A stretch of DNA of 52,067 nt, from assembly GCA_021792635.1 (NCBI GenBank), contig JAJYUH010000017.1:1-52067 (forward strand), written 5' to 3'. Shown here one piece after another: positions 6,110-27,694 of this stretch (positions are counted from its first letter, which is position 1; every line of letters starts with the position of its first letter). Source of the stretch: Natronospirales bacterium (GTDB taxonomy: Bacteria > Pseudomonadota > Gammaproteobacteria > Natronospirales > REEB76). A model generated the notes under the pieces. It was not told where the DNA came from and did not search any database. It was given only the letters and a program-made list of their open reading frames with translations. The translations under genes were made by a program, and so were the position numbers.

Positions 6110-7247
6110 CACTCTCTCCCACATCCGCAGAGTCGCTATCCACCAGTTCCCGCAGCACCGCCGTGGCATAGGCGCCCGCCGGCAGAAAAAATTCCAGCGC
6201 CAGTACGCGTTCTCCCGGTGACTGCCACCGCAGATCCGTCACGGGCAAGCGCAGCGCACGGCGTGCGGACTCCAGCCCCGCCGCTTCCAGGCCGCGGGCA
6301 AATGCAGCATAGTCGCGTGCCACCCGGGTTTCCAGCATCGCTACATTCCCGGAGACGCGGGTATCGCCTCTGCCCCACAAGGGTCCCGTGGGATGCACAT
6401 CGCCCGCCGCGGAACGCGCTGCCAAGGCAGCGTCCACGCTATCCGCATGAAACACACTGTGGCTACCGTCCAGCATGCATACTTCGCTCGGCAGGATCTT
6501 GTCCCAGGTATTGTCTGCGACACGCTGTGACACCACGGCATTGAAGATGAGGCTGCGGGCCGTGGATAGCAGCAAGCTGCGCAAATTGCGCTTGCGGATG
6601 GACAACTCGCCGCTGAAAAATGCCGCAGCGCGCGCAATGTTGGCGCCGTCGCGGCCAAAGCGCTGCGGACCGAAATAATTGGGCACTCCCCGCTGACGGA
6701 TCTGTGCAAGCCGCGACTCCAGTGCGGCGGCCGGTACCGTCAGGTCGCGCAGCAGCAGGCGGAAACGGTTGCCCCTGAGGGCACCGATGCGCAGCTTGCG
6801 GCGGTGGCGCGCTGCCGCCAGCACGCGGAATTCAGGGTGGGTCTGCGTGGACCAGTCCGGCTCGGGGCGCTTGCCCAGCCACAGGCTGAAATGCTGCACG
6901 GCCACCGCCTGCCGGTCCTTGCGGCCGGCAAAACTCACATCGCGGGGCGGTATGCCCGCCATGCGCGCGAGTTCCTTCGCCACCCACTGGGTGTTGGCAC
7001 CGCGCTTCTCCACGCGCACCAGTACATGCTCGCCGTCGCCTTGCGTCTCGAAGCCGAGCACTTCCTCCACACGAAAATCCTCGGGCGTGGTACGCAGGCG
7101 GGCACGGCCCGGAACGGCGCCGTGCGCGCGGACCCATTGAAATTGGCCCTGCTCAGCATGCGTCCCGCCAGCGTCAAATACTGCTTGGGGATGGCACCCC
7201 CCATGCGCATCCCCACGCCGGCGGCCGGAATCACCGCCCAGAATCAC
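6093..7247 (-). CDS. truD: tRNA pseudouridine(13) synthase TruD with an aberrant N-terminus
   Basis: Makes pseudouridine 13 in tRNA-Glu. The catalytic Asp lies in [11 protein letters not shown] at about residue 111; other TruD landmarks are TPEDFRVEE (54-62), RHKRKLR-like [28 protein letters not shown] and the C-terminal [15 protein letters not shown]. TruD proteins usually begin shortly before the AHG..G.ARLR block found here at about 41-51. The ~38 residues before it read through the ispD relic in another frame, and the only canonical start in this frame is GTG 7247, which has no good Shine-Dalgarno. The catalytic body looks intact; the N-terminus is probably new. It follows ftsB, where ispD-ispF normally intervene. 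Confidence 0.92.
7151..7243 (-). pseudogene. ispD: ispD relic: about 30 N-terminal codons only
   Basis: Reading the minus strand from 7243 gives [16 protein letters not shown] followed by [12 protein letters not shown], the unmistakable N-terminal nucleotide-binding signature of 4-diphosphocytidyl-2-C-methyl-D-erythritol synthase. After LAGR homology stops and within a few codons the DNA becomes truD in another frame. The relic has no start: a TGA lies immediately upstream in the same frame, and the nearest ATG (at about 7262) is one base out of frame. The remaining ~200 codons of ispD and all of ispF, which normally sit between ftsB and truD, are absent. This is a deletion scar. Confidence 0.88.
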
Positions 7248-7266
7248 GGTTCAGGACTGCATAGGC

Positions 7267-7581
7267 TCAGTGGCGGGGCGGCGGCGGTTCCCGCACGATC
7301 TGATAGAAAGTTTCGCCCTTCTTGATCATGCCGAGATCGGTGCGTGCCTGTTCCTCGATAGCCGCGTGACCCTGCTTGAGGTCCTGCACTTGTGCGGTCA
7401 ATATCTGATTGCGTTTCATGAGCTCGACATTCTCCGCTCGCTGTGCACTGACCTGCCGCCGCAGTTTCCAGGCACCACGCAGGTTGCCCTCCCCGAACCA
7501 CAACTGGTACTGAAACAGCAGCAGCAGCAACAGCAGCAGCAACGGCAGCAGAAATTTCAATTGTAGCCTGCGCGACAGCAC
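7267..7581 (-). CDS. ftsB: Cell division protein FtsB
   Basis: Bitopic divisome protein that joins FtsL and FtsQ to regulate septal peptidoglycan synthesis. 104 aa from GTG 7581: a short basic N-terminus, one membrane helix at about 9-24 made almost wholly of leucine, the family motif QYQLWFGEGNLR just after it, a coiled coil (about 35-80: RRQVSAQRAENVELMKRN), and the C-terminal AIEEQARTDLGMIKKGETFYQIV. The GTG follows the eno stop by one base with GGAAG at good spacing, so translation is probably coupled to eno. The membrane helix is encoded by a CTG-rich trinucleotide tract. Confidence 0.93.
   Translation of the reverse strand: MLSRRLQLKFLLPLLLLLLLLLFQYQLWFGEGNLRGAWKLRRQVSAQRAENVELMKRNQILTAQVQDLKQGHAAIEEQARTDLGMIKKGETFYQIVREPPPPRH
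7516..7551. repeat. CAG/CTG trinucleotide tract inside ftsB
   Basis: Near-perfect CAG triplets, interrupted by CAA and one CGG, run across the leucine-only part of the FtsB membrane helix (CTG/TTG on the coding strand). Slippage by whole triplets would change helix length without shifting the frame. Confidence 0.8.
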
Positions 7582-7582
7582 G

Positions 7583-8878
<1,296 letters not shown>

Positions 8879-8925
8879 TTACAGGTCCTGATTTCTTTGC
8901 TCGCCGTTACCAGAATGAAAGCACT

Positions 8926-11462
<2,537 letters not shown>

Positions 11463-11523
11463 CTAACAGAATCAGGGGATTGAAAAAAGCCAAATCACCT
11501 GCGCCTTGCGCCATGGCAGCCTT

Positions 11524-12858
11524 TCAGTGCAATGCGGGGTGCGACTGCCATTCGATGCGCAAACCCGGTTCGTCTTCCCCGGCCGCAAAGGGTGCACAGA
11601 CGAACAGCCCCGTCACAGCCGCCAGTTCGTCACCGATATAAACGAGCGGCAGCCGCGCGCGCATCCAGGGCACCACTTCCAGTTCCTGCAGCCATTTCTT
11701 GAGCGGCCGGCGATGGGCACGACCCGCCGGCTGACAGATCTCGCCGCCGGGGCGGAAACTGATGCGCACTCCTTGCAGCGGGCAATTTGCCAGGCGGATG
11801 CCTGCGCCGCCGGTGACCGCGAGCCGCAAAGTACCCAGGCCTGGGCTCAATGTCCGTGCGGCACCGGGCTGAAGCAGGAATTCCCCCGGCGGGTCCGGCA
11901 GCGGTGCCAGGGCGTAAAGTCGGCGGTGATAACGGCGCACCTCTGCTCCCCGCCACGTAATACAGGGATTGCGGTCAGCCCGGGCCGGCAACAGCTCGCT
12001 GAAAATCTGCTCCAGTTTATGCGCTGGCGGCAATGGCAGGCCGAGTTTTCCCAGCCAGTGGCGCAGCAGATTTTTTGCCCGTGCCTTGCCGAGCTCATGC
12101 AAGACGTGCAATGGCAACGCCGAAATTTTCCCGCCCGCATGTCTTTCCCAGTCTTCTGCGGCAACCGTGGCAAGCAGTTCCGCGGCTTCCGCACAATGCC
12201 GTGCGCTGCGCGTCACAGTTTCAGCCGCCGCCGGCCACCGCCGGCGGATTACGGGAATGACCTGCTGACGCAGGTAATTGCGGTCAAAGCGGATATCGGT
12301 ATTGCTCGGATCCTCCAGCCAGGTGAGTTTTTCCGCCTCAGCCCAGGTGCGCAGTTGAGCACGCGAAAAAGCGAGCAGCGGTCGCGCCAGATGACCCGAA
12401 CCGCAGGCTGCCAACGCCGGCATGGCAGCGAGGCCACGCAGCCCCGCACCGCGGAACGCCTGCAACAGAAAGGTTTCCGCCTGATCGTCACGCTGGTGGG
12501 CCAGCAGCAGCATGCCGCCTTCCCGCAGCAGTTCCCGGAATACGGCATAACGCTCGTTACGGGCCGCCGCCTCGAGACTTTCGCCGGTTGCGGTCGTCAC
12601 CCTGACACTGCGGCAATCCAGCGGCACAGGCAGCACGGCACAAATTTGTGCGCAGTGCCGTTCCCAGTCATCTGATTTCGGGTTGAGATGGTGATTCACG
12701 TGCAGCGCACGCAGTTCGGCGCCAAGCCGCACCTGCTGCCGCGCAAGTGCGTGCAGTAATACCGTTGAATCCAGACCGCCGCTGAAGGCCACCCAATAGC
12801 GTGGTGCCGGCGGTAGTCCGCACAGCCGGTCCGCCAGGTATGCAGGGGTGAATTCCAC
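11524..12858 (-). CDS. tilS: tRNA(Ile)-lysidine synthase
   Basis: Converts C34 of the CAU-anticodon tRNA-Ile to lysidine so that it reads AUA. The PP-loop SGGLDSTVLLH lies near the N-terminus, followed by LHVNHHLNPKSDDWE, AHQRDDQAETFLLQAFRGAGLRGL and LEDPSNTDIRFDRNYLR, then the TilS substrate-binding and C-terminal domains (SFRPGGEICQPAGRAHRRPLK). The start is uncertain: GTG 12858 gives 444 aa and a normal N-terminus, and it overlaps the end of accA by 33 bp. Longer in-frame reading into accA looks non-homologous. Confidence 0.93.
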   Translation of the reverse strand: MEFTPAYLADRLCGLPPAPRYWVAFSGGLDSTVLLHALARQQVRLGAELRALHVNHHLNPKSDDWERHCAQICAVLPVPLDCRSVRVTTATGESLEAAARNERYAVFRELLREGGMLLLAHQRDDQAETFLLQAFRGAGLRGLAAMPALAACGSGHLARPLLAFSRAQLRTWAEAEKLTWLEDPSNTDIRFDRNYLRQQVIPVIRRRWPAAAETVTRSARHCAEAAELLATVAAEDWERHAGGKISALPLHVLHELGKARAKNLLRHWLGKLGLPLPPAHKLEQIFSELLPARADRNPCITWRGAEVRRYHRRLYALAPLPDPPGEFLLQPGAARTLSPGLGTLRLAVTGGAGIRLANCPLQGVRISFRPGGEICQPAGRAHRRPLKKWLQELEVVPWMRARLPLVYIGDELAAVTGLFVCAPFAAGEDEPGLRIEWQSHPALH

Positions 12859-12889
12859 AGGCGGGCCGGACGGGAAGACGCCCGACGGC

Positions 12890-13846
12890 CTATTCCCTGA
12901 AACTGCCAAAGGACATGAACCGTTTGTAGCGTGCTTCCAGCAGCTCATCCATGGAAACATGCTCGAGCCGGCTCAGATTATCGGTGAGGGCGTTTTTGAC
13001 GGTTGCCGCCATGGCATCCGCATTGCGGTGCGCGCCGCCCAGCGGTTCCTTGAGTACCGCATCAATCAGTCCCAGGCTTTTGAGGCGTTCGGCGGTAATG
13101 CCCATGGCCTCCGCCGCCTCGCTGGCCTTCTCCGCACTCTTCCACAGGATGGAAGCACAGCCTTCCGGCGAGATAACGGAATAGATGCTGTATTGCAGCA
13201 TCAGCACGCGGTCGCCCACACCGACGGCGAGCGCACCGCCGGAACCACCCTCGCCGATCACACTACAGATGATCGGGACCCGCAAGGTGGACATTTCAAA
13301 CAAGTTGCGCGCAATCGCCTCGGACTGGCCGCGCTCCTCCGCACCCACGCCGGGATAGGCGCCGGGTGTGTCAATAAAGGTCATGAGCGGCAGGCGGAAG
13401 CGTTCGCTGAGCTTCATGATGCGCAGTGCCTTGCGATAGCCCTCAGGACGCGGCATGCCGAAATTACGGCGTACTTTTTCCTTGGTGTCACGGCCCTTCT
13501 GCTCGCCGATGACGGCCACCGGTCTGCCGTCCAGCCGCGCTACGCCGCAGACCAGGGCGGGATCGTCGCCGAATGCCCGATCGCCGTGCAGCTCCTCGAA
13601 ATCCGTGAAAATGCGCTGAATGTAATCCAGGCTATAGGGCCGCAGGGGATGACGCGCCAGTTGCGCTACCTGCCAGGCGCTGAGGCCGGAGAAAATGGTT
13701 TCCGTAAGTGCGCGGCTCTTGGCCTGCAGGCGCTCGATTTCCTCGGTAATGCTGACGGCGGACTCGTCGCCGACGAAGCGCAGCTCCTCGATTTTCGCCT
13801 CCAGTTCGGCGATGGGTTGCTCAAATTCGAGAAAGTTGAGGTTCAT
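12890..13846 (-). CDS. accA: Acetyl-CoA carboxylase carboxyltransferase subunit alpha
   Basis: With AccD forms the carboxyltransferase that makes malonyl-CoA for fatty acid synthesis. 318 aa, normal length. Landmarks: [19 protein letters not shown] at the N-terminus, [61 protein letters not shown], and the oxyanion segment [15 protein letters not shown]. It lies directly downstream of dnaE, as in E. coli. The 63 bp gap contains short inverted repeats but no U-tract terminator. Confidence 0.98.
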
Positions 13847-13895
13847 CTTTTGAGGGGGTACTCAAGGGGTGGTAAACGTTACCGGCTGGGGCCGC

Positions 13896-13909
13896 GGGGC
13901 ACAAGCCCC
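13896..13909 (-). other. Short GC hairpin in the dnaE-accA gap
   Basis: GGGGC and GCCCC with a four-base loop lie just past the dnaE stop on the minus strand, with no run of T after them. It could slow polymerase or mark an mRNA 3' end between dnaE and accA, but evidence is slight. Confidence 0.3.
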
Positions 13910-16900
13910 TCAGGCGCTGACGGCTTCATCGGCAGGACTGACGGGGCGCGTACCGTAATGCAGCGTGACCCGCTCTGCGCCCAGCCAGGCGCCCAGTCGC
14001 CGGGTGAGGGACTCGGCCGGATGCACCCGCCAGGCATCGCCCAGGGATACCGGCACGCTGGCTCCCTGCCCCCGGTAGTGCACCCATACGCTGACGCGGC
14101 CGCCCAAATGGGGCTTGAGCACGTCCTTGAGGCGTGTGACGAAATCCGCTGCTGCTGCCGGCTCCCAGTCAATATCCAGACGGCGGACGTAGCGTTCCCG
14201 CAGTTCGTCTATTCCATACAAGTTCTTCACGGTAACACGCCAACCGTTGATGAATTCGTCGAACCCGAGCCGTCCCTCCGCTACCACCACACTATCCTTT
14301 GCTGCCAATGCGCGAAAGCGGTTATAGGTGTCCTCGAACAACGTAATTTCCATGCGCCCACTGCGATCATCCAGTACCAGGCTCACACGGCCGCCACGCT
14401 TGCGCAGATCCACCACCAGACCCGCCACGATGACAGCGCGCGACGCCGCGCCATAAGCATAACCGCGTTCGCCGTTGCTTTCCGGCGGCGACTCGCCCGC
14501 GAGCTCGCCGAGCGGCGCGGTAACCACATGCCGCAGGTCAGCCAGATAACGATTGACGGGATGACCGGTCAGATACAATCCCAGAGTGTCTCTTTCGCCG
14601 CGCAGGCGTTCATCCTCATCCCAGTCGGATACTGGCGGGGCGGTCTGTGCTTCATCCGGCTTCGCCACCTCCGGCCCCGCCAGACCGAACATATCGTTTT
14701 GACCTGCTGCTGTTGCACGCGTGTTCTGATCTGCGCGTGCCAGGGCATCAGGCAACCGCGCCATGAGCGTGGCGCGGTTAAGACCCAGCACATCCAGAGC
14801 ACCGGCGCGGATCAGGGCCTCGATCACACGGCGATTGGCCTTTTGTAAATCAATACGCCTGCAGAAGTCTTCGATGGATTTGAAATCGCCATTGCGTGCC
14901 CGCTCTTCCAATACCCCTTCAATGGCCGCTAACCCCACGCCCTTTATGGCGCCCAAGCCGTAGCGGATAGAGCTTTCATTTGCTACTGCAAAACGGTAAT
15001 CGGAATGATTGACATCTGGCGGCAGAATTTCCAATTCCATGGCGCGGCATTCATTTATGAGCGTCACTACTTTATCGGTATGCTCCATGTCAGAAGACAG
15101 CACAGCCGCCATGAAGGCTGCAGGATAATGTGCCTTGAGCCACGCTGTTTGATAAGCAAGTAACGCATAGGCGGCAGAATGGGATTTATTAAAGCCGTAG
15201 CCTGCAAACTTCTCCATCAGATCGAAAATATGCGTAGCCTGCCGCGGGTTCACACCACGCGCTATCGCGCCTTTCACGAACACGTCCCTCTGTTGTGCCA
15301 TCTCTTCCGCATTTTTCTTTCCCATGGCACGGCGCAGCAGGTCGGCACTTCCCAAAGTATAGCCGGCCAGCACCTGTGCAATCTGCATCACCTGCTCCTG
15401 GTAGAGGATCACGCCATAGGTGGGTTTCAGAACGGGTTCCAGCTTGGGGTGCGGGTAATCCACCCTGGCCTTACCGTGTTTACGCGCAATGAAATCATCC
15501 ACCATGCCGGACTGCTGCGGACCGGGGCGAATCAGCGCCTGCAGCGCCACGATGTCTTCGAACCGGTCCGGCTTTAGTCGCCTGATCAGGTCTTTAGTGC
15601 CACGCGATTCCAACTGGAATACCGCGGTAGTCTGGCAACGCCTCAACAGCGCGTAAGTTGCCGGGTCATCCAGCGGAATGGCATTGATGTCCACCGACGC
15701 CGCATTATTTACCTGATGTTTCCGGTTGATGATGCCAACCGTCCAATCGATGATTGTAAGAGTACGCAGACCCAGAAAGTCGAACTTGACCAGACCCACC
15801 GATTCCACATCATCCTTGTCAAACTGCGTGACCGGGTGGGTACTGCCGGGTTCACAATAGAGCGGCATGAAGTCGGTGAGCTCGGAAGGGGCGATCACCA
15901 CGCCGCCGGCATGCTTGCCGGCATTGCGCGCCAACCCTTCCAGGGAGCGCGCCAGGTCAATCAGCTGCCGCACTTCATCCTCGTTCTTGTAGCGCTTGCG
16001 CAGCTCAGGCTCCTGCCCCAGAGCCTTGTCCAGAGTCATCTCCAGCTCAAAGGGGATCAGTTTGGCAAGCTGATCCACGAACCCGTATGGATGACCGAGT
16101 ACGCGTCCCACGTCACGCACCACCGCGCGGGCCGCCATGCTTCCATAGGTGATGATCTGGGAGACGCGCCCGCGGCCGTAGCGCTCCGAGACATAATCGA
16201 TTACGCGGTCACGGCCTTCCATGCAGAAATCAACATCAAAATCCGGCATCGAGACGCGTTCAGGATTCAGAAAGCGCTCGAACAGCAAATCGTATTCCAG
16301 GGGATCCAGGTCGGTAATGCCAAGCGCATAGGCCACGAGGGAACCGGCGCCCGAACCGCGCCCGGGCCCCACAGGAACACCATTTTCCCTGGCCCATCGG
16401 ATGAAATCGGCCACGATGAGAAAGTATCCGGAAAAACCCATGCCCAGGATTACGTCAAGCTCCAGTACCAGCCGTTCTTTATAGGACTGTGCACGGGTCT
16501 TCTTGTCTCCGCCGCCGGGGCGCAAGGACGCCAGGCGCCTCTCCAGGCCCGCCTGAGCTTCGGACCGGAGATAACTTTCGGTGCTCTGCCCGTCCGGAAC
16601 CGGGTACACCGGCAGGAAATTCTTGCCCAGGCGCAGTTCGAAACTGCAGCGGCGGGCGATTTCAACGCTGTTTTCCACCGCCTCCGGCAAATCGGAAAAG
16701 AGCCGCAGCATCTCTTCCTCATTGCGCAGGTACTGCTGTTCAGTGTAGCGGCGGGGGCGGCGCGGATCACTGAGGGTCCGGCCTTCCTGGATGCACACCC
16801 GTGCTTCATGGGCTTCGAAATCCCCAGGCTTGAGAAAACGTACATCATTGGTTGCCACCACCGGCGCTCCGCTGCCGGCGGCAAGTTGCACCGCCGCCTG

Positions 16901-17440
16901 CAGATAACCCTCTTCGCCTTCGCGACCGGTACGCTGCAAATCAATGTAGAAGCGGTTGGGAAACAGCTCCAGCCAGTCATGCAGTAAAGTACGGGCTTGC
17001 GTCTCGCGGCCCGCCAGTAAGGCGCGTCCTATGTCGCCTTCACGTCCGCCGGAGAGTGCGATCAAACCGTCGCTATGGCCCTCAAACCACTGTCGCTCCA
17101 GCAGGGGCATACCACGCTGCTGGCCTTCCAGGTAACTGCGGGTGATGAGCACGGACAAATTGCGATAGCCCTCTGCATCGCAACACAGCAACGTTAGAAC
17201 ATGGGGCGGATCCGCTTCCGCGTCCCGAATTCGCAGGTCTGCACCGATCAGTGGCTTGATGCCGCGGGCCTGGGCCTCTTTGTAGAACTTGACCAGCGCA
17301 AACAGGTTTCCCTGATCCGTGAGTGCTATCGCCGGCATGTGCATGCTTGCCACCGTATCTATGAGCTCCGCTACACGGATAACGCTGTCCACCAGCGAAT
17401 ACTCGCTGTGCAGACGCAGGTGAACGAAACGCGGTGACAT
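13910..17440 (-). CDS. dnaE: DNA polymerase III alpha subunit
   Basis: Replicative polymerase catalytic subunit, 1176 aa. The PHP domain opens the protein (FVHLRLHSEYSLVDSVIRV), the palm carries GPGRGSGAGSLVAYALGI and the catalytic aspartates in PDFDVDFCMEGRDRVIDYV, then the thumb/fingers (GVILYQEQVMQIAQVLAG, FNKSHSAAYALLAYQTAWLKA), a helix-hairpin-helix region and an OB-fold (VIVAGLVVDLRKRGGRVSLVLDD). ATG 17440 follows the rnhB stop by two bases; the in-frame codons further upstream are inside rnhB. The order lpxB-rnhB-dnaE-accA is the standard gammaproteobacterial one. Confidence 0.98.
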   Translation of the reverse strand: MSPRFVHLRLHSEYSLVDSVIRVAELIDTVASMHMPAIALTDQGNLFALVKFYKEAQARGIKPLIGADLRIRDAEADPPHVLTLLCCDAEGYRNLSVLITRSYLEGQQRGMPLLERQWFEGHSDGLIALSGGREGDIGRALLAGRETQARTLLHDWLELFPNRFYIDLQRTGREGEEGYLQAAVQLAAGSGAPVVATNDVRFLKPGDFEAHEARVCIQEGRTLSDPRRPRRYTEQQYLRNEEEMLRLFSDLPEAVENSVEIARRCSFELRLGKNFLPVYPVPDGQSTESYLRSEAQAGLERRLASLRPGGGDKKTRAQSYKERLVLELDVILGMGFSGYFLIVADFIRWARENGVPVGPGRGSGAGSLVAYALGITDLDPLEYDLLFERFLNPERVSMPDFDVDFCMEGRDRVIDYVSERYGRGRVSQIITYGSMAARAVVRDVGRVLGHPYGFVDQLAKLIPFELEMTLDKALGQEPELRKRYKNEDEVRQLIDLARSLEGLARNAGKHAGGVVIAPSELTDFMPLYCEPGSTHPVTQFDKDDVESVGLVKFDFLGLRTLTIIDWTVGIINRKHQVNNAASVDINAIPLDDPATYALLRRCQTTAVFQLESRGTKDLIRRLKPDRFEDIVALQALIRPGPQQSGMVDDFIARKHGKARVDYPHPKLEPVLKPTYGVILYQEQVMQIAQVLAGYTLGSADLLRRAMGKKNAEEMAQQRDVFVKGAIARGVNPRQATHIFDLMEKFAGYGFNKSHSAAYALLAYQTAWLKAHYPAAFMAAVLSSDMEHTDKVVTLINECRAMELEILPPDVNHSDYRFAVANESSIRYGLGAIKGVGLAAIEGVLEERARNGDFKSIEDFCRRIDLQKANRRVIEALIRAGALDVLGLNRATLMARLPDALARADQNTRATAAGQNDMFGLAGPEVAKPDEAQTAPPVSDWDEDERLRGERDTLGLYLTGHPVNRYLADLRHVVTAPLGELAGESPPESNGERGYAYGAASRAVIVAGLVVDLRKRGGRVSLVLDDRSGRMEITLFEDTYNRFRALAAKDSVVVAEGRLGFDEFINGWRVTVKNLYGIDELRERYVRRLDIDWEPAAAADFVTRLKDVLKPHLGGRVSVWVHYRGQGASVPVSLGDAWRVHPAESLTRRLGAWLGAERVTLHYGTRPVSPADEAVSA

Positions 17441-17442
17441 GC

Positions 17443-18042
17443 TCAGGCGGTCTCTTCCAGACAGCGCCTCACCGGTGCGAATGAACGCCGATGGATCGTG
17501 CATACACCGTGTGCTGCAATGGCCGAGAGATGCGCCGGCGTGGGATAGCCCTTATGCACTGCAAAACCGTACAGGGGAAATACTGGATCAAACCGCTGCA
17601 TGGCTGCATCCCGTTCCACTTTAGCGAGAATGGAGGCCGCACTGATGGCGGCTACCTTGCTGTCACCCTTGACGATGGCTTTCACCGCGCAGGGCAATGC
17701 CGGGCAGCGGTTGCCATCTACCCACACCATCTCCGGCACAAGCGAGAGCGCCAGCACCGCCCGCCGCATCGCCAGCAGCGAAGCTTGCAGGATATTCAGG
17801 CGATCTATTTCCGCGTGATCCGCCCAACCCACCGCCCAGTCCAAAGCCCGGATGCGGATTGCCGCGGCGAGCAACTCCCGCTGCAGCGGCGCGAGCTGCT
17901 TGGAATCCATGAGACCGGAGATAGGCCTGCCTGGGTCGAGGATCACCGCAGCGGCAGTTACCGGTCCGGCAAGCGGCCCCCGGCCGGCCTCGTCCACACC
18001 GGCGATGACGCCGCGATTCTCCCAAGACGTTATCAGTTGCAT
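17443..18042 (-). CDS. rnhB: Ribonuclease HII
   Basis: Removes RNA, including single ribonucleotides, from RNA-DNA duplexes. 199 aa from ATG 18042, which has GGGAG six bases upstream and gives the usual length; ATG 18072, right after the lpxB stop, is the alternative and adds ten residues. Catalytic motifs: [14 protein letters not shown] (Asp-Glu pair), VWVDGN (third Asp) and [14 protein letters not shown] (fourth acidic residue); the C-terminal [18 protein letters not shown] is typical. It is wedged between lpxB and dnaE with almost no spacing. Confidence 0.97.
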
Positions 18043-18073
18043 GACGGCTCCCGCGCGTGCGCGTGTCGTCATT

Positions 18074-19234
18074 TTACCCCGCCGCCTCGGGATGTTTCCC
18101 CAGTAATTCCAATACGGCTTCCGCCGCGCGTTGGTCCGCTCCGCGCTGCAGCATACTGCTGAGCGCGGCAAAGGCCTCAAGCTGCACGGCGCGCTCCGCC
18201 TGGTTCCGCAGCAGTTTCAGGATTGCCGTACTCAGGTTGTAAGGAATGGCCCGATATTGAAGAAATTCCGCAACCACGGCGCGGCCCGCCAGCAGATTGG
18301 GCAGCGATACGTGCGTAACGCGCAACCGGCCCAGACCCCTTACCAGTGCGTAACTGCTCGCGGCAACGCGATAGGCCACCACCATGGGACAGCGCCATAG
18401 CATGGCCTCCAGGGTGGCAGTACCGGAAGCGATGAGCGCCACGTCCGCCGCACCCAACACATCGCGTGCATGTCCCTCCACCACACTCACCGGCAGATCG
18501 GGCTTGAGCATACGCACCTGGTTCTTGATGAGCCGACTGAGTGCCGGGGTCGCGGCCGGAATGATGAACTTCAGTTCCGGCAGTTCCTCGGCCAGCCATT
18601 GAGCCGTGTCCAGAAACAGCGGCCCCAGCCGTTCCACTTCGGTACGGCGGCTACCCGGCAGCATCGCCACCAGTTGACCCTCCGGCGGCAGATGCAAGGA
18701 TTTGCGCAATCCGCTCCGATCCGGTATACGCGGGGCGATATCCGCCAACGGATGGCCGACAAATTCCGCGCGAAATCCGTGCTTTTCATACAGGGCCTTC
18801 TCGAAGGGCAACAAAGTCAATACCAGGTCCGTAGCCCCGCCTACGGTATACACCCGCCGCGAGCGCCATGCCCAGATGGAAGGGCTCACGTAATGCACGG
18901 TACGGATGCCCGCCTTGTGCAATCCGGCCTCGAGACTGAGGTTAAAATCCGGCGCGTCAATGCCGATGAAAACATCCGGGCGCTGCCTGAGGAAATGCCG
19001 GCGCAAACGCCGCCGCAACCACAGCAGTCTGGGCAGGTGCGCCAGTATCTCGGCGATTCCCATGATTGCCAGCGCTTCGGCGTGGGCGAGCGGCTTACAG
19101 CCTGCCGCGATCATTTCCGGACCGGCGATGCCTTCGAATTGTGCGTCGGGTACGCGTGCCCGGATGGCACGGATCAGGCCCGCGCCGAGAATATCCCCAG
19201 AACTCTCGCCAGCGGTGATGCCGATACGCAGCAT
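18074..19234 (-). CDS. lpxB: Lipid-A-disaccharide synthase
   Basis: GT19 glycosyltransferase joining UDP-diacylglucosamine and lipid X to make the lipid A disaccharide at the inner membrane. 386 aa. Landmarks: [84 protein letters not shown] and [18 protein letters not shown]. It follows lpxA by 34 bp in the lpxD-fabZ-lpxA-lpxB run. Confidence 0.97.
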
Positions 19235-19268
19235 GTTTTATCAGTGTCTGTGGAAAACCTTAACCGGA

Positions 19269-20039
19269 TCAACGCATGATACTGCGCTGACTCACTTCCA
19301 GAAATTTCACCAGGCACGATACTTCCGGCTGATTGGCGGCCAACACGCGCAACTTTTCCAGGGCCTCCTCCAGACGCAGATCCGAGCGGTACAAAATGCG
19401 GTAGGCATGCTTGACATTGCGGATTTGTTCTGCGGTGAAATTGCGCCTTTGCATACCTTCGCTGTTGATGCCGCGAGGCTCTGCAGGTGTACCGGAGACC
19501 ATCACATAGGGCGGCACATCACGGCTCAAGTCCACATTCATACCGGTAAAACCATGGGCACCAATGCGGCAGAACTGATGCACCTTGGTAAATCCACCGA
19601 GGATCGCCCAGTCCTCTATGGTAACGTGGCCGGCTAGCGTGGCATTGTTCGCCATGATGACGTTGTTGCCCAATACGCAATCATGCGCGATATGGACATA
19701 CGCCATGATCCAATTGTCACTACCGATAACTGTCCTGCCCCTGTCCTGCGCGGTGCCGCGATTCACGGTGACGAATTCGAAGAAGGTATTACGATCACCG
19801 ATTTCGATCCATGTCGGCTCACCGCCGTATTTCTTGTCCTGGGGTATGCCGCCGATGGAAGCAAACTGGAAAATGCGATTATCGCGGCCGATGCGCGCCG
19901 GCCCCTGAACGACTGCGTGGGGTCCAACCCGGGTGCCGGCGCCGATTTCCACTTGCGGACCGATGACGGCAAACGCTCCGATCGTCACCCCCGCGTCGAG
20001 ACGGGCCGACGGATCAATGACCGCTCGCGGATCAATCAA
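19269..20039 (-). CDS. lpxA: UDP-N-acetylglucosamine acyltransferase LpxA
   Basis: First step of lipid A synthesis: transfers an R-3-hydroxyacyl chain to UDP-GlcNAc. 256 aa, a left-handed beta helix of hexapeptide repeats ([20 protein letters not shown]). The catalytic His is in [10 protein letters not shown], and the acyl-chain region [13 protein letters not shown] and the C-terminal helical domain ([20 protein letters not shown]) are present. The start overlaps the fabZ stop by 4 bp. Confidence 0.97.
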
Positions 20040-20494
20040 GATTCAAACTCCCGCTCAGCGCACATGAGTTCCGCCTCGGCAACCACCGCTCCTTCTACCT
20101 CCGCCCGTGTTTTAAATTTCCATATGCCGCGCCTGTCCCACAGATATTCCACCTTCAGCAATACCTGGTCACCGGGCTCCACTGGTTTCTTGAAACGCGC
20201 GCTGTCAATACCGACGAAATAGTACAGGGTGTTCCTGTCGGGGGCATGACCGAGAGTGGCAAACGCCAACAGTCCGGTGGCCTGGGCCAAAGCCTCCAGA
20301 ATCAGGACTCCCGGCATGACCGGCCGGTGCTGGAAATGACCGGGGAAGAAAGGCTCATTGATAGTGACATTTTTGACGGCGGTAAGCGATACACCCGGCT
20401 TGCATTCCAGTACCCGGTCCACCAGCAGGAACGGATAACGGTGCGGCAATTGCTTCAGGATAGCGTGAATGTCGAGAAAGGTTTCCTTTGACAT
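20036..20494 (-). CDS. fabZ: 3-hydroxyacyl-[acyl-carrier-protein] dehydratase FabZ
   Basis: Hot-dog fold dehydratase of fatty acid elongation. 152 aa. The catalytic His lies in [13 protein letters not shown] and the catalytic Glu in [17 protein letters not shown], after the NEPFFPGHF block. It sits between lpxD and lpxA, where it shares the 3-hydroxyacyl-ACP pool with lipid A synthesis. It overlaps lpxA by 4 bp and follows lpxD by six bases. Confidence 0.97.
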
Positions 20495-20500
20495 GACCGT

Positions 20501-21523
20501 TCAATCCTTCAATTTCTTCTCTAAGAATGCAAGCCGGCGTGCCAGCATATCCAGTTGACGGAAGCGAACGCTGTTCTTGCGCCACCGTGCCGCCGTATCC
20601 ATGGGCATGCTGCCGCAATATACACCTGGTTCGTGTATCGAATGCGTGACAAGCGTCATGGCCGTGATGGTGACATCGTCGCAGATCTCGATATGGCCGG
20701 TGATACCCACCCCCCCCGCAATCATACAGCGCCGGCCGATGGTTGCACTGCCGGCAATAGCGGTACAACCCGCAATGGCAGTATGTTCGCCAATGCGGAC
20801 GTTATGTCCCACCTGAATCTGATTATCAAGTTTAACGCCGCTGCCGATGACGGTGTCCTCCAGCGCACCCCGGTCAATGGTGGTATTGGCACCGACTTCC
20901 ACATCATCTCCGATCACCACTGAACCCAGTTGCGGCACTTTGAACCACACCCCATCGTCGTTGGCGATGCCGAAGCCATCCGCACCGATTACGGCACCAG
21001 GATGAAGCAACGCCCGCTTGCCCACATGCACACCGTGGCAGAGAGTCACGCCTGCCACCAGACAACTGTGCTCTGCCACCCGCGCGTTTGCCATGATTAC
21101 GCAATTGGGACCGACAGAAGCACCGCCTGCGATCACCGCCCCCTCTTCCACCACCGCCCCCGGACCGATCCAGGCATCTACGGACACTCGTGCAGCAGGG
21201 TGCACGCTGGCACCGGCTGCCACGCCTTTGCGCACCGGCGCCGCGGGCGTGAGCACGGTGGCGACACGCGCATACAGCAGATAGGGATTGGATGTGATCA
21301 GCGCCGGTATCCGGCAGGCCTGCACGTCGACTGGCGCAAGAATCACGGCCGAGGCATGCGTCTCGTACAGATAGCGCCGGTAATGCGGGTTTGCAAGAAA
21401 GGTAATACTGCCGGCAGCGGCGCGCTGAATAGTGGCAACACCGCGAATATGCGTATCTCCGTTACCGCGCAGCTCACCGCCGCAACGCCTTGCCAATTCC
21501 GCCAACGTATATTCTACCGGCAC
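20501..21523 (-). CDS. lpxD: UDP-3-O-(3-hydroxyacyl)glucosamine N-acyltransferase LpxD
   Basis: Adds the second hydroxyacyl chain in lipid A synthesis. 340 aa from GTG 21523. An N-terminal uridine-binding domain (YTLAELARRCGGELRGNGD, ITFLANPHYRRYL) is followed by hexapeptide repeats from about residue 105 (VHPAARVSVDAWIGPGAVVE) and a C-terminal helix (RFRQLDMLARRLAFLEKKL). The active-site His lies in the IQVGHNVRIGEHTAI block. It lies downstream of skp with a 13 bp gap. Confidence 0.96.
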   Translation of the reverse strand: MPVEYTLAELARRCGGELRGNGDTHIRGVATIQRAAAGSITFLANPHYRRYLYETHASAVILAPVDVQACRIPALITSNPYLLYARVATVLTPAAPVRKGVAAGASVHPAARVSVDAWIGPGAVVEEGAVIAGGASVGPNCVIMANARVAEHSCLVAGVTLCHGVHVGKRALLHPGAVIGADGFGIANDDGVWFKVPQLGSVVIGDDVEVGANTTIDRGALEDTVIGSGVKLDNQIQVGHNVRIGEHTAIAGCTAIAGSATIGRRCMIAGGVGITGHIEICDDVTITAMTLVTHSIHEPGVYCGSMPMDTAARWRKNSVRFRQLDMLARRLAFLEKKLKD

Positions 21524-21536
21524 ACGTCGCCCCGCC

Positions 21537-22088
21537 TCACTTACCGCCGCTGCCGGACTTATGCTGCCGGGTTTGGAAATCCTTCTGCAATTGATCCAGC
21601 ACTTTGTCGGTCACATCCACGGTGCCATCCGCATAAAAGACGCCCTCACCGATGATGAGATTATATTTCTGGGCTTTGGCGAATTCCTGTACGGCCTTGA
21701 GGATGGCTTGTTGCAGTTTACCCAGTTCTTCATTGCGCTGCGCATTGACATCATCTTGGAAATCCACCTGCTTGCGGTTGAAATCCTGCTGCAGGCTGTC
21801 CAACTGGTTCTGCAGACTCTGCAATTGTGCGGCACTCATGATGGCGCCATTGCGGTTGATCTGATCCTGAAGGTTCTTGATCTTGTCCTGCTCGGCCTGA
21901 AGCGCCTTGCTGCGGTTATCGAATTTATCATGCATCACCTTGGTGGCCTCCTGCGCCTGGGGTGCCTGCTGCAGCAGTTTCGCCATGTTCACCACGCCGA
22001 TTTTTGTTTCAGCCGCATACACCTCTCCCACATACAGTAATGCAGCAAATGCCGCCAGCATGATGAACAGTTTTGGTGTAATTTTCAT
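21537..22088 (-). CDS. skp: Periplasmic chaperone Skp (OmpH)
   Basis: Holds unfolded outer-membrane proteins on their way to BAM. 183 aa from ATG 22088, preceded by GGAGAG; a GTG two codons upstream is the alternative. Sec signal peptide to about residue 25 (LFIMLAAFAALLYVGEVYAA), a beta-stranded core start (TKIGVVNMAKLLQQAPQ), long coiled-coil arms rich in Gln/Lys/Asp (about 50-130), then a return to the core (FAKAQKYNLIIGEGVFYAD). The last ten residues are Ser/Gly/Lys-rich. It is adjacent to bamA, its partner in the pathway. Confidence 0.93.
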   Translation of the reverse strand: MKITPKLFIMLAAFAALLYVGEVYAAETKIGVVNMAKLLQQAPQAQEATKVMHDKFDNRSKALQAEQDKIKNLQDQINRNGAIMSAAQLQSLQNQLDSLQQDFNRKQVDFQDDVNAQRNEELGKLQQAILKAVQEFAKAQKYNLIIGEGVFYADGTVDVTDKVLDQLQKDFQTRQHKSGSGGK

Positions 22089-22106
22089 AAACACTCTCCA
22101 AAGAAA

Positions 22107-24485
22107 TCAGAAATAGGTACCCAACGTGAACTGGAAACGTTCAGTCTGGTCTCCCGGTTGGGCGTTCAGCGGCAAAGCATAACTGAATTTCATGGCGCCA
22201 AGGGGAGTCAGAAAGGTAGCCGCCACGCCGGTGGAGATACGCAAGGCATTCCAGCGGAAATCACCCGGATCGGTAAAGGCATTGCCCGCATCCAGGAACA
22301 AAGCCCAGCGACTGGAACCGCTTTCCGATCCGGATTTGCTGCCGAAATGCGGCAGAATCAGTTCATTCTGCATCCATACGTCGGTCCGGCCGCCGAACGG
22401 GTAGCCTGAGGAGTATGGCCCCAAGGTGTCGATTCGCCAGCCGCGTACCGTGTCCGGGCCGCCAACAAAAAAGTTCTTGTAGGGAGGATAGGTGGCGGTC
22501 TTGCCGTAGGGTGCGCCATAATCCGCTTCGCCGTTAAAGCCGAAGATGAATCCCTTGAACAACGGAATGAATGCCAGTTGCTGATAGCTCAGTATGTAGT
22601 ATTCCTGGTCAAATCCCGGTACCGCCGCAGTCAGGCTGATGGATTCGCGCGCGCCGCGGTCCGGGAAAATGATCCGGTTGCGGGTATCGCGCACATAACT
22701 CAGCGATGCCTCAAGAGTATTGTATTGCAGCGCCGGATATTCGCAAATAAATGTAAATCCCCTCGGATCACTGCATGCACCCGTCGTATCAGTGACATGG
22801 CCATTGGCGGGGTTGGATATAAACGCCACATACTGTTGTGATGTTCCAAACTGTGAAAACAGCTGATTATGCGAGTAAGTAGCGCTGATGCCCCAGGCGC
22901 TGTATTCCGACACCGGTATATTAAAACCTATCTGACCGCCGTAGGACTGGGTTGTCAGCGGTGCACTATAGATGGTAAGCGAAGAAATCTGGCTCTGGTA
23001 TACACTCAACGTCCGGCTGATTCCATCCACCGTCCAATATGGATCAGTGAAGCTGACGTTGTAATTGTGCCCGATATAACTGCGGCTTGCCTGCACTGCG
23101 AAGCGCTCCCCGGTACCCAGGAAGTTTGCATTGACTACCTGGCCCTGCAGCACCAGGCCGGAATAGCTGCCGTAACCGACTCCCACGTTGGCTGTACCCG
23201 CCGGGCGTTCGCTTATTTTGTAATCCAGGTCCACCAAATCAGGTGAACCGGGTACACGTACGGTCTTGACTTTTGCATCCTGCACCCACGGCAGGCGATC
23301 AATGCGTACACGCGAACGTTCCACATCTGTATTGGACAGCCAAGTGCCCTCGAACTGGCGCATTTCGCGGCGGAATACCACATCATCGGTACCGGAACCA
23401 CCGCTGAAATTGATATGCCGTACGTATTCGCGCTGGCCCGGGTCAACGTAAAAAGTGATAGAGACCAGCTTGCGCTGACGGTCAATATCGGGAATCGGAT
23501 TCACCTGGGCAAAGGCATAGCCATCCACGCCAAGCCGCCTTTGAATCAGGTCAGCACTCACAGTGGCACGCTTGAGAGAGAATGTTTCTCCGGGCTTCAC
23601 CAGCACATATTTTTTCAGTTCTTCCTCAGGCACCACAAATTGCCCGGCCAATTTCACATCCTTGATCTTGTACACTCCGCCTTCGGAGATATTTACCGTG
23701 ATATAGACACTGTTGCGGTTCGGCGAAATTGCCACCTGGGTTGAGTCAATGGCAAAATCCGCATAGCCCTGGTCCATATAGAAGGATCGCAGGGATTCGA
23801 GATCACCCACCAGCTTCTCGCGGGCGTACTCGTCCGAACTGCCAAAAAACGTCCAGATGCTCGCTACCTTCAGCTTGAATACGTCACGCAGGGTGCTTTC
23901 GGAAAAAGTGTGATTACCCACGATACTGATGGAACGGATTTTGGCTGTCGTGCCTTCGGCAATTTTTACGGAAATATCAACCTTGTTATCACTGACATTG
24001 GCAACGTCGGATTTGATTATCACGCCGTATTTTCCGTGACTGTAATATTCGTCCGTGAGCTGCTGGATGAACTGATCAAGGGTAACCCGGTTGAATATCT
24101 GTCCCTCGGATAGACCTATCTTGTTCAAAGTCTTATACAGATCATCGGACTTGATCAGCTTGTTGCCCGTTATGACGAAATGTGCGATGGACGGCCGCTC
24201 ATGCACGATGATGATGAGCGTATCGTTCTGACGACGCATTTCAATGTCACGGAAAAATCCGGTCTTGTAAAGCGCGCGGATGGCGTCCTGAATACGCGCT
24301 TCGGTGAGATGATCGCCGATATTGATAGGCAGATAATCGTAGAGCGTGCCTGTGGAAATACGCTGCAGGCCGACGATCTCGATCTTTTTGACGGTAAATG
24401 ACTCATCCGCATGGGCGATGGAGGGAGCCAGCACCAGGAATAGCAGAAAAGCCAGAATGATCCCGGTGCCTTTAAGTAGTCCCAA
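22107..24485 (-). CDS. bamA: Outer membrane assembly factor BamA
   Basis: Central Omp85-family insertase for outer-membrane beta-barrels. 792 aa: signal peptide ending AHA at about 26, five POTRA repeats to about 425 (KKIEIVGLQRISTGTLYDYL; SISIVGNHTFSESTL; DVKLAGQFVVPEEEL), then a 16-stranded barrel (NVGVGYGSYSGLVLQGQVV). The lid-loop motif reads TVRGW (VRGF/Y in most relatives), and the C-terminal residue is Phe, as needed for barrel recognition. An extracellular loop holds two cysteines (GACSDPRGFTFICEYP) that could form a disulfide, comparable to the pair in E. coli BamA. It lies between rseP and skp. Confidence 0.97.
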   Translation of the reverse strand: MGLLKGTGIILAFLLFLVLAPSIAHADESFTVKKIEIVGLQRISTGTLYDYLPINIGDHLTEARIQDAIRALYKTGFFRDIEMRRQNDTLIIIVHERPSIAHFVITGNKLIKSDDLYKTLNKIGLSEGQIFNRVTLDQFIQQLTDEYYSHGKYGVIIKSDVANVSDNKVDISVKIAEGTTAKIRSISIVGNHTFSESTLRDVFKLKVASIWTFFGSSDEYAREKLVGDLESLRSFYMDQGYADFAIDSTQVAISPNRNSVYITVNISEGGVYKIKDVKLAGQFVVPEEELKKYVLVKPGETFSLKRATVSADLIQRRLGVDGYAFAQVNPIPDIDRQRKLVSITFYVDPGQREYVRHINFSGGSGTDDVVFRREMRQFEGTWLSNTDVERSRVRIDRLPWVQDAKVKTVRVPGSPDLVDLDYKISERPAGTANVGVGYGSYSGLVLQGQVVNANFLGTGERFAVQASRSYIGHNYNVSFTDPYWTVDGISRTLSVYQSQISSLTIYSAPLTTQSYGGQIGFNIPVSEYSAWGISATYSHNQLFSQFGTSQQYVAFISNPANGHVTDTTGACSDPRGFTFICEYPALQYNTLEASLSYVRDTRNRIIFPDRGARESISLTAAVPGFDQEYYILSYQQLAFIPLFKGFIFGFNGEADYGAPYGKTATYPPYKNFFVGGPDTVRGWRIDTLGPYSSGYPFGGRTDVWMQNELILPHFGSKSGSESGSSRWALFLDAGNAFTDPGDFRWNALRISTGVAATFLTPLGAMKFSYALPLNAQPGDQTERFQFTLGTYF

Positions 24486-24497
24486 GTGCAGTCCTCC

Positions 24498-25862
24498 TCA
24501 CCCGATGATTCTCGTCAGATCGTTGTATATGGCAAAACACATCAGCACCAGCAGCAACGCGATGCCGACACGCTGGCCCATAATCTCGGCCTGGACGGAC
24601 AAGGGTGAGCCCTTGACCGCTTCCACGACGTAATAAAGCACGTGGCCGCCGTCCAGCACCGGAATCGGCAGCAGATTCAGCACTCCGAGGCTGATACTCA
24701 CGATGGCGAGGAACGCCAGGAACGGCACCAAGCCGCTCTCCGCGGTGTAGCCTGCGTACTGCGCTATATCTATCGGCCCGCTGAGGTTGCGCAAGGATAC
24801 CTTGCCCAACACCATATTCCAGGAGGCATCCAGGGTGAGCCAAGCAAGGCTCCCAGTGCGTGCAAACGCATGCCCCAGCGCGACCGCGGGATTATACCTT
24901 TGTTCCGCCCGCAGGCGCGCACCGAATCCGGGTGGAATTCGCACCATGGCACCGATATGGCCAAGCAACCTCCCTCCCGGTTCCTTCACCTCCCCTACGG
25001 GCAGGGACAGGGTCAGAGTATGACCATACCGTTCCAGTGTCACGACCAGTGTCTTGCCGGCAGAGGCCTGCAGAATAGCCACCAACTGCTGCCAGGAGCG
25101 GATCGGGATATTGCCCAACTCAACGATATGATCACCCGGCCGCAAGCCCGCCGCCTTGGCTGTGCCGCCATCTGCGACCTGGGCGATCACCGCCGGCAGA
25201 TCGGGGTTCCATTGGCCGAGCCCAAGGCCGGTCAGCAGCTTCCCCGGTTCGGTGAGGGTCTTGGCGTGCGTCACCTGCAGTACCAGATCTTTTTCGCTGT
25301 TCTGCACCGTCCGCACCCGCACATTTATACGCCCGCCCTGCATTACGCCCTCAAAAAGCCGTACCAGGGCGCTATCCCAGGTGGGGGTGGTATGGCCGTT
25401 GACGGCAAGAATCTCGTCTTTCTTCACCATGCCCGCCAGCGCGGCGGGCGAATCCGGTCGCACATCGCCCACGATGGGACGGATGCCGGGAATCCCAATC
25501 ATGAAAATCACCCAGTAAGCCAGCACCGCAAACAACAGATTGAATAGCGGACCTGCCAACACCACCATAAAACGCTTCGGCAGCGGCTGCCGGTTGAAGG
25601 CCAGATGCCTGTCCGCTTCCGGTACTTCGCCTTCACGCTCATCAAGCATCTTGACATAGCCGCCCAGCGGTAACCAGGCGATGACATACTCCGTGGCATC
25701 CGGGCTGCGTTGCCAGCGCAGCAGCGGTTTGCCGAACCCCACTGAAAAACGCAGTACCCGGATCCCGAGGAAGCGCGCCACGATGAAGTGTCCGAACTCA
25801 TGCACGCTGACCAGCACGCCAATGGCGACCATGAATGCCACAATGCTGATGAGGATATTCAC
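24498..25862 (-). CDS. rseP: Site-2 intramembrane protease RseP
   Basis: Zinc protease that cleaves RseA and remnant signal peptides, releasing sigma-E. 454 aa from GTG 25862, whose GTGA overlaps the stop of the dxr relic; further upstream codons in frame belong to the relic region. The zinc motif HEFGH lies in helix 1 (VLVSVHEFGHFIVARFLGI), two PDZ domains follow the second helix (RPDSPAALAGMVKKDEILA; DGGTAKAAGLRPGDHIVEL), and the third zinc ligand is in LLPIPVLDGGHVLYY. The order cdsA-(dxr)-rseP-bamA is the standard one. Confidence 0.97.
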   Translation of the reverse strand: MNILISIVAFMVAIGVLVSVHEFGHFIVARFLGIRVLRFSVGFGKPLLRWQRSPDATEYVIAWLPLGGYVKMLDEREGEVPEADRHLAFNRQPLPKRFMVVLAGPLFNLLFAVLAYWVIFMIGIPGIRPIVGDVRPDSPAALAGMVKKDEILAVNGHTTPTWDSALVRLFEGVMQGGRINVRVRTVQNSEKDLVLQVTHAKTLTEPGKLLTGLGLGQWNPDLPAVIAQVADGGTAKAAGLRPGDHIVELGNIPIRSWQQLVAILQASAGKTLVVTLERYGHTLTLSLPVGEVKEPGGRLLGHIGAMVRIPPGFGARLRAEQRYNPAVALGHAFARTGSLAWLTLDASWNMVLGKVSLRNLSGPIDIAQYAGYTAESGLVPFLAFLAIVSISLGVLNLLPIPVLDGGHVLYYVVEAVKGSPLSVQAEIMGQRVGIALLLVLMCFAIYNDLTRIIG

Positions 25863-26089
25863 GCTACACGTTCCGCTGCACCGGCCGTAGCCGCCGCCGC
25901 GATGACACGCGCGCGTCGATCGCACTCCAACACGGCTTCGATGGAATCAGGGGCGGAAGAAGGACATTGCTCCAGCGTGCGGCGCACCATCTCGGCAATG
26001 ACCTGAAAATGGCCGCAATGACGGCTCAGCACATCCAGGGTATGCCTGCCGACGCTGCTGGTGGCACCCAGAATAGTGATACCCCTCAT
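25859..26089 (-). pseudogene. dxr: dxr (ispC) relic: N- and C-terminal ends fused by internal in-frame deletion
   Basis: A 76-codon frame sits exactly where dxr normally lies, between cdsA and rseP. The first ~32 residues (ITILGATSSVGRHTLDVLS, then HFQVIA) match the NADPH-binding start of 1-deoxy-D-xylulose-5-phosphate reductoisomerase, though the Gly of GATGS has become Ser. The text then jumps to the C-terminal helix of the same enzyme (VRRTLEQCPSSAPDSIEAVL, then ECDRRARVIA). About 320 residues, including all catalytic and metal-binding residues, are missing. The frame is preserved: ATG 26089 overlaps the cdsA stop and the stop overlaps the rseP GTG. It cannot be an active enzyme. Confidence 0.9.
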
Positions 26090-27631: not shown

Positions 27632-27694
27632 GCCGCTGCGCACCCCGTTTGGATGATACCGCCGCACAACGCGCGGCTGAAAACCACTGTGGCA

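Follow-up and report, generated by a model that had tools for sequence, protein, structure and literature searches.

A mevalonate operon in place of a decayed MEP pathway in a Natronospirales bacterium, with leucine catabolism as its predicted source of HMG-CoA

The stretch of DNA considered here (the window) is the whole of contig JAJYUH010000017.1 (C12; 52,067 nt) from a Natronospirales bacterium (GCA_021792635.1), one of 30 contigs in a genome assembly of 2.71 Mb that is 94% complete. It contains the two sites at which dxr and ispD–ispF, genes of the methylerythritol phosphate (MEP) pathway to isopentenyl diphosphate (IPP), have been lost, and it is near certain that a mevalonate pathway encoded elsewhere in the genome has replaced the MEP pathway. 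All MEP genes past dxs have either been broken or deleted or could not be found; an intact mevalonate operon likely makes all of the IPP of the cell. Its starting material is predicted to be 3-hydroxy-3-methylglutaryl-CoA (HMG-CoA) derived from leucine, because no HMG-CoA synthase was found; that leucine catabolism would feed the pathway is the reading that we favour, with some reserve, from gene content.

Each protein family search covered 56 genomes, this one and 55 relatives, including the sister species G008 (99% complete), the genus mate G007 (98%) and the order mate G014 (100%). A six-genome tree built on seven proteins places this genome and G008 as a sister pair with support of 1.0 and 93% identity, with G002, G007 and G005 at 69–76% identity. 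The window aligns to the G008 genome at about 90–94% identity with two breaks (BLAST), and these breaks are the losses that the original prediction had described as decay of dxr and ispD–ispF among preserved neighbours. One is a stub and the other a 1,101-base deletion, and the flanking genes, uppS included, are kept.

25859..26089, minus strand: dxr relic, an in-frame stub of 76 codons, identified by BLAST and base-level reading; the intact orthologue in G008 is L031:6988-8187.
7152..7153, no strand: deletion junction, from alignment to G008, at which 1,101 G008 bases are absent (the whole of ispF, which is intact there, together with the start codon of truD and the greater part of ispD).
7153..7262, minus strand: ispD relic, in which about 110 bases remain of the 5' end, interrupted by an in-register stop and carrying a 1-base insertion; the ispD frame is open in G008 (L058:9673-10428).

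The first 32 codons of the dxr stub correspond to the N-terminus of G008 DXR and the remainder to its C-terminus, the intervening ∼320 codons (∼960 bases) having been deleted; the two BLAST alignments overlap by 14 bases at the joint, and the sequence itself has ATTGCC in common there (25999-25994). At the other site the window matches G008 at 94% identity up to 7152 and at 91% from 7153 on. A missing contig was considered as the cause of both losses and rejected, since the flanks join directly within the window. The expectation that no complete copies would be found elsewhere holds for DXR (PF08436) and IspF (PF02542), which have no match in this genome versus 43 and 44 matching genomes of the 56, respectively, the type II DXR family not having been searched genome-wide. 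For ispD it extends to the locus itself, where no intact gene was found; the IspD family was not searched genome-wide and a second copy elsewhere was not looked for.

Decay or absence of ispE, ispG and ispH had also been anticipated, and two pseudogenes and an unmatched family are what the genome contains. The ispG gene (family matched in 46 of the 56 genomes, this one included) lies in four broken pieces. Within its conserved part it differs from that of G008 by an insertion of one base, two deletions of one base each and a TGG-to-TGA change, with further differences upstream of this part. The ispE gene (47 genomes, again including this one) is likewise in pieces, with one 1-base insertion and one 1-base deletion relative to G008. 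IspH (PF02401) gave no match in this 94% complete assembly, versus 42 genomes with one; the neighbourhood of ispH in G008 was compared with 200 kb of this genome and matched nowhere, so that the search for the ispH site by synteny failed. The gene was not found and has probably been lost, and ispH is the least certain of the MEP losses. Decay was also viewed across the genome by pairing open reading frames (ORFs) of G008 with their BLAST partners here, ORFs with no partner falling outside the table. Among 51 pairs with a ratio of nonsynonymous to synonymous rates (dN/dS) below 0.5, 49 were covered over at least 80% of their length (one of them aligned to an unrelated stretch), and those cut short were ispE and ispG only. 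In this lineage ispE and ispG have accumulated nonsynonymous and synonymous changes at 36:30, compared with 85:145 in ten control genes from which rseP was left out (p=0.015). The decay of the MEP genes is probably young.

The suggestion that the whole MEP pathway became dispensable stands for the genes after dxs but not for dxs, which is intact (923 bits against a cutoff of 466) and adjoins the gene for farnesyl diphosphate synthase. 1-Deoxy-D-xylulose 5-phosphate (DXP) also feeds thiamin and pyridoxal phosphate synthesis, and retention of dxs is as expected if DXP still serves these two ends. The DXS family itself was matched in all 56 genomes, in some only weakly and probably through other thiamin-dependent enzymes. 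The order mates G014 and G016 (L029, L030) have mevalonate genes and only weak DXS matches, and the family searches found no match in either to DXR, IspE, IspF, IspG or IspH; they seem to be further along and would have to obtain the precursors of pyridoxal phosphate and thiamin in another way.

The mevalonate genes form an operon on contig C19 inside a hopanoid cluster. The upstream order is hpnA, a squalene synthase-family gene, the squalene-hopene cyclase gene and hpnG, followed by mvaD, a phosphomevalonate kinase (PMK)-like gene, a fusion of HMG-CoA reductase with mevalonate kinase, and idi-1; beyond idi-1, on the opposite strand, lies a radical SAM gene with a DUF3463 domain, which we read as hpnH. 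Replacement by a mevalonate pathway, as originally proposed, is thus borne out by the presence of reductase, mevalonate kinase, PMK-like gene, decarboxylase and isomerase. The fused protein has 752 residues and exceeds the cutoffs of both its models (TIGR00532, 403 against 260; TIGR00549, 249.5 against 163), with a score of 364 bits for the HMG-CoA reductase family; alignment of its reductase part to a solved class II reductase (PDB code 1qax) shows conservation of motifs that we take to be catalytic. Between the sisters its dN/dS is 0.041, indicating that the fused gene is under strong constraint. MvaD (TIGR01240, 297 against 171; 250 bits to a solved decarboxylase) and IDI-1 (TIGR02150, 155 against 106) also exceed their cutoffs. 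The squalene synthase-family gene scores 109 bits on TIGR01559, below the cutoff of 287; it is the only such gene in the cluster (L025:8024-9229, plus strand), and no hpnC, hpnD or hpnE was seen beside it.

HMG-CoA reductase was matched in ten of the 56 genomes, nine of them above the cutoff, and within the genus in this genome and G008 only. The reductase matches in G021, G035 and G043 were rejected as evidence of a mevalonate pathway, as no kinase, decarboxylase or isomerase match occurred in the stretches read; in other genomes, queries with these enzymes pick up relatives as distant as about 24% identity. In G045 (contig C3; L023, L024) a second HMG-CoA reductase-like gene lies in pieces, one with an internal stop, besides a whole copy.

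The order of events is given by the sister species. G008 carries the same operon (82–95% protein identity) together with uninterrupted DXR, IspF, IspG, IspH and IspE genes and an open ispD frame; gain of the operon therefore preceded loss of the MEP genes. The original prediction had the relics catching the replacement midway, but in this species it looks finished, and the midway state is that of G008. DXR was matched in nine of ten genus mates, the tenth genome being 52% complete, and the eight other DXR-bearing members of the genus have no HMG-CoA reductase match, nor was one obtained in G002, G005 or G007.

In a midpoint-rooted FastTree phylogeny the fused protein groups with those of a Rhodanobacter metagenome-assembled genome (MAG) and another gammaproteobacterial MAG (support 0.96), inside a wider clade of 33 of the 82 sequences (support 0.94), where 17 of the first 30 names are Wenzhouxiangella or Wenzhouxiangellaceae; the order mate G016 sits outside this clade. 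This tree suggests that the operon may have been acquired by horizontal transfer. Of 280 fused-enzyme loci found, 80 were kept; the gene order mvaD, PMK-like gene, fusion and idi-1 recurs in 68 of them (all taxa), and at least one hopanoid gene is nearby in 33, many of the stretches being short. The class mates G034, G041 and G045, which have a reductase and no DXR match, carry separate mevalonate genes, unlike the fusion here. Their kinases, decarboxylase, isomerase and, in one genome, reductase are 23–42% identical to the genes here (BLAST), and the reductases of the other two gave no BLAST match to the fused protein.

HMG-CoA synthase, which headed the list of genes expected under the original prediction, was found here neither with PF01154 nor with a profile built from ten HMG-CoA synthase-like genes of divergent relatives. 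PF01154 matched G050 alone among the 56 genomes. It gave nothing in the seven where a reductase occurs together with genes for the kinase or decarboxylase, namely this genome, G008, G014, G016, G034, G041 and G045. The ten-sequence profile, run on the same genomes up to E=10, gave no match in this genome, G008, G014 or G034; what it matched in G016, G041 and G045 proved on checking to be FabH and was rejected as HMG-CoA synthase. As far as these models see, HMG-CoA synthase is absent from the assembled sequence of this genome and its sister.

A possible substitute lies on contig C15, where adjacent genes encode an acyl-CoA dehydrogenase, a thiolase (acetyl-CoA acetyltransferase), a carboxylase β subunit, a crotonase, a biotin carboxylase-type α subunit and HMG-CoA lyase. 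The best solved relatives of the acyl-CoA dehydrogenase are isovaleryl-CoA dehydrogenases (561 bits). The β subunit scores 798 bits against methylcrotonyl-CoA carboxylase (PDB code 3u9r) and somewhat higher against the acyl-CoA carboxylases 4q0g, 9tps and 9yx0; the α subunit was assigned by position and by its biotin carboxylase family, and the lyase by NF004283 (456 bits against a cutoff of 246). An enoyl-CoA hydratase/isomerase gene in the window (5351-6169, minus strand), in a region collinear with G008 and overlapping the truD end, was considered as the methylglutaconyl-CoA hydratase and rejected: among solved proteins its best match is a mitochondrial enoyl-CoA isomerase, and the crotonase of the leucine cluster fits better. 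The cluster is also present in G008, G014, G002 and G011, and three of its genes occur at a contig end in G016. In Trypanosoma brucei, leucine carbon enters sterols via HMG-CoA and deletion of isovaleryl-CoA dehydrogenase abolishes this (PMC5993337); the opposite link, from HMG-CoA to isovaleryl-CoA, is described for Myxococcus (PMC9548883).

Several observations weigh against the combined reading of MEP loss and a leucine-fed mevalonate pathway. The PMK-like gene scores 104.9 bits on TIGR01220, below the cutoff of 165.7, and its solved relatives are weak, although its position in the operon fits. The crotonase, which lies between the carboxylase subunits in the position of a methylglutaconyl-CoA hydratase, reaches 302.8 bits against an equivalog cutoff of 426. 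The leucine cluster is not specific to the mevalonate pathway, being present in G002 and G011, both of which have no HMG-CoA reductase match; the cluster is therefore likely to predate the operon and to have been co-opted. The ten-sequence profile matched nothing in the genus (G000–G010), not even FabH, and so has no positive control there; possibly the genus does without an ordinary FabH. An assembly that is 94% complete could hide ispH or HMG-CoA synthase in its missing part, and G007, at 98%, also has no IspH match, so that this absence can reflect an assembly gap. Finally, the dN/dS of the relics is only mildly raised, and the G008 copies, at 20:24, do not differ from them (p=0.44); decay of ispE and ispG was called from the lesions and not from substitution rates because the rate test is weak.

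The alternative that deserves most attention accepts replacement of the MEP pathway and has HMG-CoA made from acetyl-CoA by an HMG-CoA synthase that is unassembled or too divergent for the models. An HMG-CoA synthase-like gene was found in 17 of 30 genomes with the fused enzyme (this genome and 29 from the 80 loci, the record of G008 included) and not in the other 13, Wenzhouxiangella sediminis (G060) being one of these 13; its frequency is also the main point against a leucine supply. In the Nevskia genome L090 the synthase-like gene is situated downstream of the fused gene, at a distance of about 3 kb, and 12 of the 17 score only 52–65 bits. An acetyl-CoA acetyltransferase is moreover encoded in the leucine cluster. 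This route is nevertheless considered unlikely, as G008 and G014, with their more complete assemblies, also have no HMG-CoA synthase, and as the divergent-relative profile was empty in them and here while reaching as far as FabH in other genomes. The divergent HMG-CoA synthases of Dyella and Nevskia genomes and two other MAGs with the fused enzyme (L191–L196) are about 490–520 residues long and score 52–65 bits on PF01154. The lyase of the leucine cluster, with the thiolase beside it, could instead run in reverse and make HMG-CoA from acetyl-CoA and acetoacetate. The HMG-CoA lyase reaction normally proceeds towards cleavage, and no sign of a changed enzyme was seen, so that such a reversal is very improbable. 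Dependence on neighbours, with mevalonate or other isoprenoid precursors imported, finds a precedent in the 2.61% of bacterial species reported to have neither pathway (PMC13001223). We regard it as improbable too: the genome is of ordinary size (2.7 Mb), and the reductase step, which would be useless with imported mevalonate, is strongly constrained, the low dN/dS being that of the whole fused protein. That the relics are assembly or sequencing errors in a functional MEP pathway is hardly credible; most lesions in ispE and ispG are single-base insertions or deletions, but the nonsense substitution in ispG, the missing IspH match, the absence of any other shortened gene among the 51 compared and the two deletions, both clean, about 1 kb long and bordered by matching sequence, all speak against it. 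For dxr and ispF this reading is already refuted unless another assembly should differ.

Replacement of the MEP pathway with HMG-CoA drawn from leucine would have proceeded in stages. The common ancestor with G008 would have gained mvaD, the PMK-like gene, the fusion and idi-1 in its hopanoid cluster, likely horizontally, and the two routes would then have coexisted, a state still seen in G008. In the present lineage dxr, ispD–ispF, ispE and ispG decayed through the deletions, frameshifts and nonsense changes found in the genome, with ispH, which was only not found, probably lost as well and dxs retained, likely for thiamin and pyridoxal phosphate. HMG-CoA would likely be produced by isovaleryl-CoA dehydrogenase, methylcrotonyl-CoA carboxylase and methylglutaconyl-CoA hydratase, the genes assigned to which are present. 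The fused enzyme would carry it through the reduction and phosphorylation steps ahead of its cleavage by HMG-CoA lyase.

The genes around the two lesions in the window have been kept, in the order bamA, rseP, cdsA, uppS, frr, pyrH and tsf on the dxr side and rpoS, surE, truD, ftsB, eno and kdsA on the ispD side. Those closest to the lesions are as follows.

24498..25862, minus strand: rseP, kept; the ORF call is 24498-25925 and the GTG start at 25862 is a reading of the sequence.
26086..26892, minus strand: cdsA, kept (family match).
26885..27667, minus strand: uppS, kept (family match); its product consumes IPP.
6093..7247, minus strand: truD, kept; its own start codon is deleted and the open frame starts at GTG 7247 inside the former ispD.
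7267..7561, minus strand: ftsB (DivIC family), kept, adjoining ispD; the ORF call is 7267-7728 and the start codon is a reading of the sequence.

The dxr stub is located between cdsA and rseP, with 4-base overlaps with the stop of the former and the start of the latter, and may persist as a link over which ribosomes pass on from cdsA into rseP. The GTG at 7247 is the sole conventional start seen upstream of the conserved part of truD; it adds about 30 residues, which are read in a different frame.

Among known systems, Legionella offers a gammaproteobacterial parallel: as reported in PMC13001223, all species analysed have no phosphomevalonate kinase and most have no HMG-CoA synthase, with the remedy given as unknown. 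The present case is similar in its mevalonate genes and missing synthase and differs in that reductase and kinase are one protein, the operon lies in a hopanoid cluster, MEP relics are visible and a dual-route sister exists. The same kind of fused enzyme, at about 65–71% identity, is common to Wenzhouxiangella, Dyella, Nevskia and Rhodanobacter, and a mevalonate pathway has been reported for Wenzhouxiangella (PMC7691419); some of these Lysobacterales-type genomes differ in having HMG-CoA synthase. Bacteria with both pathways, 2.42% of species according to PMC13001223, include Mycobacterium marinum and some Streptomyces and resemble G008; in M. marinum, by the same account, the MEP pathway is the essential one, whereas here the MEP side has been lost. 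The trypanosomatid shunt from leucine to sterols likewise supplies HMG-CoA from leucine catabolism, but T. brucei has HMG-CoA synthase too (PMC5993337), and here the shunt would be the only source. In the SD22 Acidobacterium, MEP genes were likewise not found, and shc, hpnH, a squalene synthase-like gene and most of the mevalonate genes are reported; it is an environmental and possibly partial genome, for which the available part of the paper mentions neither relics nor a dual-route sister (PMC5462960).

In a phrase search of the literature no paper combined two or more of six phrases for an HMG-CoA reductase::mevalonate kinase fusion. Judging by titles and the beginnings of abstracts, none of the papers listed deals with a bacterium in which MEP genes have decayed and a mevalonate operon is present, subscription journals being mostly uncovered. 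As far as that literature goes, what is new is the sister pair showing the swap, the relics of dxr, ispD, ispE and ispG, and a mevalonate pathway that would have to function alone with no recognizable HMG-CoA synthase.

In bacteria either isoprenoid route may be in use, or both together, or none, and the switch itself is seldom caught. The sister pair presents its before and after states and orders the events as gain, overlap and loss, with dxs as the gene that was spared; insensitivity to fosmidomycin is predicted because DXR has been lost. Narrowly, and from genes alone, we lean towards the view that all isoprenoids of this bacterium would be built from the leucine skeleton, by a pathway lacking HMG-CoA synthase that may have served hopanoids first and then the whole cell, and that the same feed may explain other bacteria that seem to have an incomplete mevalonate pathway, Legionella included. 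Such bacteria may be misclassified in presence-or-absence surveys for which HMG-CoA synthase is a requirement, and the leucine feed, if true, makes the question of how Legionella completes its pathway, as raised in PMC13001223, testable by labelling.

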